Shown here one piece after another: positions 44,515-46,596 of a stretch of DNA of 64,000 bases. A program made the translations under genes and the position numbers. Each line of letters opens with the position of its first letter. Within the stretch, counting starts at the first letter, position 1. Origin of the DNA: Flavobacteriales bacterium (lineage in GTDB: Bacteria; Bacteroidota; Bacteroidia; Flavobacteriales_D; Crocinitomicaceae); contig CANMUN010000006.1 of NCBI GenBank assembly GCA_947500875.1, positions 1 through 64,000 on the forward strand, given 5' to 3'. The notes below the pieces were generated by a model. It saw nothing but the letters and a program-made list of their open reading frames with translations. It did not search any database and was not told the origin of the DNA.

Positions 44515-44601
44515 TTTAATTGGCCTGTTGTTCAGTCTATAAAGGTAAATAATAAAGGTTAACTATAAAAGATGTCTTTTTGCAGACGTACAATTAAGTA
44601 T

Positions 44602-44609
44602 TATCTTTG
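44602..44609 (+). promoter_or_regulatory. -7 box TATCTTTG for the tRNA-Arg locus
   Basis: Perfect TAnnTTTG, 10 nt before the first 56-bp repeat and 122 nt before the tRNA. The primary transcript would then include both repeats. Confidence 0.55.
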
Positions 44610-44619
44610 CCTTCAATTT

Positions 44620-44731
44620 GGCTCCGTGGCGCAACTGTCCCTATTGGGTATTTCAGTTGCTCACTCGCCAAAAATGGCTCCGTGGCGCAACTGTCCCTGT
44701 TGGGTATTTCAGTTGCTCACATGCCAAAATT
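44620..44731 (+). repeat. Two tandem 56-bp repeats, each starting with the tRNA-Arg 5' end
   Basis: Units 44620-44675 and 44676-44731 differ at only a few bases. Each opens with GGCTCCGTGGCGCAACTGT, which is exactly the first 19 nt of the tRNA at 44732, in the same spacing, so the tRNA is the third period. After base 19 the units diverge from the tRNA and instead fold as a hairpin: GCAACTG pairs with CAGTTGC 16 nt later, an inner CCC pairs with GGG, and the outer TGGC can pair with GCCA. Confidence 0.9.
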
Positions 44732-44805
44732 GGCTCCGTGGCGCAACTGTATAGCGCATCAGATTTCGGCTCTGAGGGTTGCAGGTTAGAATCCTGCCGG
44801 GGTCA
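44732..44805 (+). tRNA. tRNA-Arg(UCG)
   Basis: 74 nt without encoded CCA. Acceptor GGCTCCG pairs with CGGGGTC (two G-U pairs) plus discriminator A; D stem GCGC/GCGC with loop AACTGTATA; anticodon stem TCAGA/TCTGA with loop TTTCGGC, anticodon TCG reading CGA (Arg); variable loop GGGTT; T stem GCAGG/CCTGC with loop TTAGAAT. Two normally invariant bases differ: G19 is T and C56 is A, which together could still form a U19-A56 tertiary pair. All stems are intact, which argues for a functional gene. Confidence 0.85.
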
Positions 44806-44812
44806 CAAAAGG

Positions 44813-45076: not shown

Positions 45077-45099
45077 GGAACACGCGGTAGCGTAATCCT
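45077..45099. repeat. 23-bp direct repeat, copy 2
   Basis: Identical to 44948-44970, 129 bp downstream of it. Its 3' end overlaps the tRNA 3'-end remnant. GGTAG, a 7-nt loop and CTACC here could form a T-arm-like stem. Confidence 0.85.
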
Positions 45100-45114
45100 A
45101 CCGGGGTCACAAAA
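45094..45114 (+). other. Copy of the tRNA-Arg 3' end (remnant or att-like repeat)
   Basis: 21 bp matching 44790-44810 with one mismatch (CCTACC for CCTGCC), including the acceptor 3' strand CCGGGGTCA and the following CAAAA. It lies 304 bp downstream of the tRNA and is followed at once by a second terminator. This is the pattern expected when something inserts at a tRNA 3' end and duplicates it. Confidence 0.75.
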
Positions 45115-45681: not shown

Positions 45682-46596
45682 TTAATCTTCCTTGTCCAAA
45701 TTAATCCAAATGTATAGGATGTAATTTATAAGTTCTTTTTCTGATAAAACGTTGCGGAGCGCTTCGAATAGCGCCAAGTGTTCCGCATTAACAAAGGTCA
45801 ATTCAAGTGTCTCGGAATAACCGTTGGGACGAACTACTTTTCTTCTATCGCGTCCTTGGTTCCATGTCCAACCCGAATTCGGTCGCGCCACTATTCTGCC
45901 ATCGGCTCCTTGTTCCCAAGTCCAACCTGAGGATGGGTAAACTACTTTGCGTCCATCTTTTCCTTGCGACCAGGTCCAATGGTAAGGCTTGGCGACTTTA
46001 CGCCCATCGTTACCTTGTTCCCAAGTCCAATTGTTGGGCCGAACAACCCTTCTACCATCCCGTCCCTGTTCCCAAGTCCATCCGGAATAAGGCCGAACAG
46101 AACGCCTTCCATCGGTTCCGGCTTCATAGGTCCAGTTGCTGTAAGGTCGCGGAACCCGCCTTCCGTCGTTCCCTTTTTCGGTGCTCCAACCGCTGTATGG
46201 ACGGATGATTTTTCGTCCATCTTCCCCTTGTTCAACGGACCACCCCGAAGAGGGATATGGTACTTTGCGCCCATCTTCCCCTTCGGTCCACAACCATTCG
46301 TAAGGAGCCGCTACCGTTCGGTTATCCCTTCCTGCGGTTCTTCGCCAATGGCTTGGATAGGCTACGACTCTACCATCAGCCCCTTCGAAATACGAGAAAT
46401 TGAGATTAACCTGCTGAACGGTAACCAACCCCGTGTACAAATCAATTTTGACGCTAGTTTTTAGCGTGTTTTGTTCTTTGGATTTGTTTCCGGTATCAAT
46501 ACCAAAAATCTGTTCGGTACTTGGGATACTAGGCAACCACTGCCCGAAAACGACACTTAGATGGAAAATAAAAAGATAACGTACTGAAGCAATCAA
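45682..46596 (-). CDS. Secreted protein with eleven W-x-E-x-G-x-DGR repeats
   Basis: 304 residues, no family recognised. N-terminus looks like a signal peptide (IASVRYLFIFHLSVVFGQ). From about residue 72 to 255 there are eleven tandem repeats of 17-18 residues with the pattern G-W-[ST]-x-E-x-G-x-D-G-R-x-V-x-[RKY]-P-x-S, for example GWSVEQGEDGRKIIRPYS and GWTWEQGADGRIVARPNS. The first and last copies are degenerate (GRDNR, GRDRR). A helical, acidic C-terminal tail of about 45 residues follows (LELTFVNAEHLALFEALRN). The regular Trp, Gly and Arg spacing suggests a repetitive beta fold that could bind an acidic partner or glycan; that is inference. It sits between two small membrane protein genes on the same strand. 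Confidence 0.8.
   Translation of the reverse strand: MIASVRYLFIFHLSVVFGQWLPSIPSTEQIFGIDTGNKSKEQNTLKTSVKIDLYTGLVTVQQVNLNFSYFEGADGRVVAYPSHWRRTAGRDNRTVAAPYEWLWTEGEDGRKVPYPSSGWSVEQGEDGRKIIRPYSGWSTEKGNDGRRVPRPYSNWTYEAGTDGRRSVRPYSGWTWEQGRDGRRVVRPNNWTWEQGNDGRKVAKPYHWTWSQGKDGRKVVYPSSGWTWEQGADGRIVARPNSGWTWNQGRDRRKVVRPNGYSETLELTFVNAEHLALFEALRNVLSEKELINYILYIWINLDKED

Follow-up and report, generated by a model that had tools for sequence, protein, structure and literature searches.

The elbow pair G19-C56, which RNase P, synthetases, modification enzymes and the ribosome all encounter, is taught as a near-invariant feature of tRNA. Reviews covering the canonical class I elongator tRNA call C56-G19 pairing conserved (PMC7912444, PMC7609411), and in the sections of these two reviews that bear on the question we found no natural Watson-Crick substitute for it. 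Swaps of this kind have been engineered with function kept: serylation of human mitochondrial tRNA-Ser(UGA) is restored by A19:U56 or C19:G56 (PMC10412605), and a review of protein-only RNase P lists an A19/U56 double mutant among the substrates that are cleaved well (PMC5039416). Natural departures from the standard D-loop/T-loop contact are represented by tRNA-Pyl, tRNA-Sec and mitochondrial tRNAs (PMC7609411), and sequence comparison has shown eukaryotic tRNA-Ala to have unusual, isotype-specific forms of two otherwise conserved tertiary pairs, 15/48 and 54/58 (PMC7566577).

The tRNA-Arg(UCG) gene described here shares with the canonical class I elongator the cloverleaf, the length of the T-loop and the availability of G18-U55, U54-A58, U8-A14 and R15-Y48, but its 19-56 pair is U-A. 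In contrast to the engineered swaps, which are laboratory mutants, the swap in tRNA-Arg is natural, fixed and recurrent, and takes the U-A form. The eukaryotic tRNA-Ala pairs differ in that they concern other positions, are not Watson-Crick and are confined to eukaryotes, not having been observed in bacteria according to PMC7566577. In tRNA-Pyl and many mitochondrial tRNAs the loops are remodelled or the contact is lost; in tRNA-Arg(UCG), by contrast, the letters of one pair are changed and the rest is standard. No description of a natural U19-A56 or A19-U56 pair in bacterial tRNA-Arg was found in the open-access literature that we searched, subscription papers and tRNA databases being outside its scope; the sequences are public, and it is possible that the swapped elbow has been noticed before.

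This is the only tRNA gene in the window, by which we mean the whole 64,000-nucleotide stretch that was analysed (Table 1). ARAGORN reports tRNA-Arg(tcg) at 44732-44806 with the anticodon at position 35. Read by hand, the acceptor stem is GGCUCCG/CGGGGUC, the D-stem GCGC/GCGC, the anticodon stem UCAGA/UCUGA, the T-stem GCAGG/CCUGC and the variable loop GGGUU, and all stems are intact. The D-loop, AACUGUAUA, is read as A14 A15 C16 U17 G18 U19 A20 U20a A21, and as it holds a single G, this G must be G18, the partner of U55. The T-loop UUAGAAU supplies U54 U55 A56 G57 A58 A59 U60. Judged by the letters, U8-A14, A15-U48 (of the R15-Y48 type), G18-U55 and U54-A58 are all possible, and 19-56 is the only tertiary pair that is off canon. 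The features that mark a bacterial tRNA-Arg are present, namely C35 with U or G at 36 (here UCG), A20 in the D-loop and A or G at 73 (here A73, at 44805), whereas those that would mark a tRNA pseudogene, broken stems and changes unshared by relatives, are not. The original prediction that U19 and A56 occur together in a gene with every stem intact was thus upheld by the hand reading, ARAGORN and Rfam. The covariance-model run that it had suggested gave a full-length match of RF00005 at 60 bits (E 1.8e-10, against a cut-off of 29 bits), which agrees with the 7-4-5-5 paired arms and standard loops of a class I elongator, and the elbow letters were read as U19 and A56.

Table 1. Positions of the tRNA gene, its elbow and its surroundings within the window
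Feature	Position	Strand	Remarks and basis
tRNA-Arg(UCG) gene	44732..44805	+	74 nt, no encoded CCA; ARAGORN, Rfam RF00005
Anticodon UCG	44766..44768	+	ARAGORN
G18 and U19 of the D-loop (canonical G18 G19)	44749..44750	+	Sequence; pattern match starting at 44749
A20, main bacterial arginine identity determinant, next to U19	44751	+	Sequence; role from PMC9976931
A56 of T-loop TTAGAAT (canonical C56), predicted Watson-Crick partner of U19	44787	+	Sequence, covariation
Bacteroidota-type promoter match, TTTG-N19-TATCTTTG	44579..44609	+	Pattern
First 56-bp unit: first 19 nt of the tRNA and a fold-back tail	44619..44674	+	
Second 56-bp unit, adjoining the tRNA on its 5' side; 93% identity to the first unit	44675..44730	+	
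Displaced copy of the tRNA 3' end, 20/21 nt, attachment-site-like	45094..45114	+	

Between the promoter match, a pattern found by chance in 0.5% of shuffled 320-nt stretches, and the tRNA lie two tandem 56-bp units (44619-44730), each of which starts with an exact copy of the first 19 nt of the tRNA, followed by a tail that folds back on this copy (about -17 kcal/mol). From their position we infer that these units would lie in the pre-tRNA leader. Relatives carry three copies at this site (G036), two (G029 and G023), one (G006) or, in many cases, none, and many relatives without the units have a TAnnTTTG box 18-32 nt 5' of the tRNA. The units of G023 carry that genome's own D-stem variant, which suggests concerted evolution. 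On the other side, the displaced copy of the 3' end is located 304 bp downstream of the gene's own 3' end, against 169-173 bp in G036, G006 and G021, and such copies (in the window and in L612, L614 and L616) closely match the tRNA of their own genome. As the distance to the next conserved gene is 1.2, 2.8 or 4.0 kb in different relatives, an insertion hot spot is suggested. An open reading frame on the reverse strand (45682-46596, 304 aa) is built of YSGWTWEQGxDGRRVVRP-like repeats.

The host genome is a draft assembly of 2.5 Mb in 102 contigs (93% complete), in which 32 tRNAs exceed the Rfam cut-off. Among those host tRNAs that were read out, to which this comparison is confined, the T-loops are canonical with two exceptions, U19/A56 being present in Arg(UCG) and A19/U56 in Arg(ACG). 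The standard G19-C56 is seen in Arg(UCU) and Arg(CCU), and hence three elbow types are found among the tRNA-Arg genes of one genome. Genomes of the genus possess one ArgRS gene each, two matching segments belonging to one frame, and this single enzyme must therefore tolerate all three elbows if all are used. No Arg(CCG) was found, which leaves Arg(UCG) as the only host tRNA seen that is able to read CGG, a codon used 69 times among 15,648 codons in the open reading frames of the window. A second reader of CGA, about which the original prediction had asked, exists in Arg(ACG) if A34 is deaminated; none was seen for CGG.

Further evidence comes from the joint behaviour of positions 19 and 56 in relatives. 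Surveys with a CGN-Arg pattern that left both positions free, tallied by hand, returned 68 U-A, 60 A-U and 2 G-C elbows in the genus (130 matches, 86 genomes) and 50 A-U, 2 U-A and 79 G-C elbows in the phylum (131 matches, 296 genomes), with no mispaired elbow in the 261 matches combined. A pattern requiring both sites to be altered, blind to amino-acid type, gave 42 matches in 198 phylum genomes, all of them tRNA-Arg and all A-U or U-A, whereas a one-sided control, G19 with any non-C56, gave none in 149 class genomes. In a full table of all letters at both positions for 22 class genomes, the altered tRNAs were all Arg and all paired (11/11), against an Arg share of 26/110 in the others (Fisher 7e-7, uncorrected for relatedness). 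Matches in this table with GTTCAG or GTTTAG and C56 were considered as one-sided changes and rejected, as they come from valine tRNAs whose longer D-loop shifts the reading by one base. Positions 19 and 56 thus change together, and selection maintains the pair rather than its letters; by covariation 19-56 qualifies as a Watson-Crick pair, with rare exceptions in viral contigs. Some 60 species of the genus share U19-A56, a degree of conservation that places the combination far beyond chance.

Changes at the same chromosomal site, identified by flanking genes, are found in both CGN isoacceptors of the genus. The ACG gene has A-U in G000, G376 and G016 and U-A in G372, G380 and G391, synteny in G391 being a little more distant than in G372 and G380; the UCG gene has A-U in G011 and U-A in G029. 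On an ArgRS tree, made by a quick method with long branches and used only as a guide, the states within the genus require one change for ACG and two for UCG. In several families of the class CGN-Arg tRNAs commonly have A-U, which is also present in some members of the genus, so that the U-A elbow of this lineage most likely arose from A-U.

These comparisons bear on most of what had been proposed from the sequence alone. That both members of the pair are changed and can still pair held, a one-sided change being absent from the 130 genus matches, the 131 phylum matches and, as G19 with non-C56, the 149 class genomes. The argument that two matching losses would not be expected in a dying gene also held, as we find neither a decaying gene nor an assembly slip. 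The implied G19-C56 ancestor needs correction, the state before U19-A56 in this lineage having probably been A19-U56, and so does the description as a rare natural variant, as most of the genus has U19-A56 as its fixed state and other phyla show it again. The strong tie of U19-A56 to tRNA-Arg could not be seen in that first reading.

This tie was seen in a type-blind scan for U19-A56 through a collection of 84,980 species' genomes. It gave at least 80 loci; of the 80 read, 78 are tRNA-Arg and 2 are tRNA-Ala. The Arg loci (one of which, L172, is truncated at a contig end and was read by eye) comprise the UCG, ACG, CCG, CCU and UCU isoacceptors and derive from Bacteroidota, Clostridia, Acidobacteriota, Proteobacteria, Spirobacillus and Cyanobacteria, one of the sources being Pseudanabaena cinerea FACHB-1277 (L186), a named isolate that belongs to another phylum. 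Among ten genomes reached through these loci and searched, one Acidobacteria genome has A-U in Arg(UCG) alongside U-A in Arg(CCU). The sole non-Arg loci among the 80 (L158 and L170) are tRNA-Ala(UGC) of Saccharibacteria, which combine U19-A56 with U20.

In viral contigs tRNA-Arg accounts for 55/57 distinct tRNAs with U-A, 89/109 with A-U and 16/21 with C-G, compared with 67/130 in the G19-C56 baseline. Phage tRNAs of this pattern are rich in Arg in any case (52% of the baseline), and measured against that baseline the Arg bias is very strong for U-A (odds ratio 26), moderate for A-U (4.2) and slight for C-G (3.0, p 0.03). A20 is retained in 205/207 altered viral tRNA-Arg. U19 accompanies A56 in 57 of the 61 distinct viral tRNAs that have A56, and the unpaired V19-A56 form is found in 17 viral contigs representing 4 distinct tRNAs. 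One of these 4 is a natural one-sided change, a prophage tRNA-Arg(UCU) with unpaired G19/A56, identical in 14 contigs (within L476-L491). The phage C19-G56 tRNAs (L447-L474), mostly Arg(UCU) and Arg(CCU), represent the fourth Watson-Crick form of the elbow.

The association is strong, not absolute. The idea that only Arg carries altered elbows was rejected, since shorter D-loops yield Gly and Ala cases and the viral baseline is already 52% Arg. A pattern whose D-loop is one base shorter picked up A19-U56 in a few class genomes, where it is carried by Gly(UCC), Gly(GCC) and Ala(UGC); several viral tRNAs other than Arg also have it. Members of one family (f22; G295, G287 and G522) have tRNA-Gly(UCC) with A19-U56 in up to three copies per genome.

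We consider it very likely (probability roughly 0.85) that the gene encodes a working elongator tRNA-Arg(UCG) in which Watson-Crick U19-A56 replaces G19-C56 and preserves the elbow; expression, charging and structure are inferred, there being no such data. In this reading U19-A56 would sit where G19-C56 normally does, stack on G57 and close the contact between D-loop and T-loop, an inference that agrees with the mutants in the literature (PMC10412605, PMC5039416). RNase P, modification enzymes and the ribosome would still accept the elbow, which they may meet mostly by shape. The swap may be favoured in tRNA-Arg in that bacterial ArgRS reads the adjoining base, A20 (PMC9976931), in its N-terminal pocket and would have no need of the letters at 19-56. 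To some other synthetases (Ala, Leu, mitochondrial Ser) the elbow pair does matter, through contact or dependence: AlaRS directly contacts G19=C56 (PMC7566577) and LeuRS depends on G18, G19 and G19-C56 (PMC9976931). We infer that A20, kept in nearly all altered tRNA-Arg, is the leading clue to the preference, and that the letters at 19-56 may be free or even useful there. A20 permits the change and does not demand it, as tRNA-Arg containing A20 often retains G19-C56. When the ArgRS pocket residues (taken from PMC8975779) were aligned over A-U and G-C families, excluding one row in the wrong reading frame (L698), no difference tracked elbow type: F82 and N84 are kept, and E. coli F36 and Q40 are usually E and T in the class with any elbow, the first of these being variable within the genus. 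Position-20 dihydrouridine or structural bracing by A20 was rejected as the cause of the Arg bias, as neither accounts for C19-G56 or for the many A20 tRNAs with G19-C56.

Among the alternatives, the one that survives best, and remains possible, is that the letters at 19-56 are a positive signal, an ArgRS determinant or a barrier against another synthetase, beyond mere tolerance. In its favour, U19-A56 is nearly confined to Arg (in the genome loci read as in the distinct viral tRNAs), and loss of G-C could block mischarging, given the AlaRS contact (PMC7566577) and the LeuRS dependence (PMC9976931). Against it, Arg(UCU) and Arg(CCU) of the same genomes still have G19-C56, and the use of three different pairs is odd for a signal that is read by its letters.

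It is unlikely that the paired states were merely co-inherited in a few gene lineages, or spread by gene conversion between paralogues, so that the pair was rebuilt fewer times than the counts suggest. The counted sequences are indeed related and few changes are needed within the genus (one for ACG, two for UCG), but synteny shows a change at the same site in both genes, and U-A is present in five isoacceptors of several phyla with different stems. As for gene conversion, the anticodon and stems that lie between positions 19 and 56 in the switched ACG genes are still those of ACG genes, so that a single tract would not suffice.

A third alternative, that U19 and A56 are unpaired and free and the elbow is held by G18-U55 alone, is very unlikely; there is no structure, and U-A is weaker than G-C, but free positions would drift apart, and neither the CGN-Arg surveys (0/261 mispaired) nor the viral tRNAs with A56 (57/61 with U19) show this. 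A decaying gene or assembly errors with coincidental pairing can be all but excluded, for although the host genome is a draft and draft or metagenome assemblies also make up most of the relatives, the same U19/A56 occurs in 68 genus matches from independent assemblies with no mispaired form and in the Pseudanabaena cinerea FACHB-1277 isolate of another phylum, and the stems, the promoter match and the need to decode CGG are all intact.

The preferred reading, a working tRNA with a substituted elbow pair, means that nature repeatedly swaps G19-C56 for other Watson-Crick pairs, mostly in one amino-acid class, while the standard form is kept in the same genomes. It separates what the elbow requires, a pair, from what is custom, the letters; it provides natural test molecules for every factor that binds the elbow, and it raises the question of why arginine tRNAs are those affected. 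A bolder reading is possible, in which the letters at 19-56 serve bacteria and phages as a concealed signal linked to isotype. In this reading tRNA-Arg has been released from G19-C56 or selected against it, and either their synthetases or mischarging would keep other tRNAs to that pair. If this were true, the “universal” G19-C56 pair would reflect synthetase identity as much as RNA folding.
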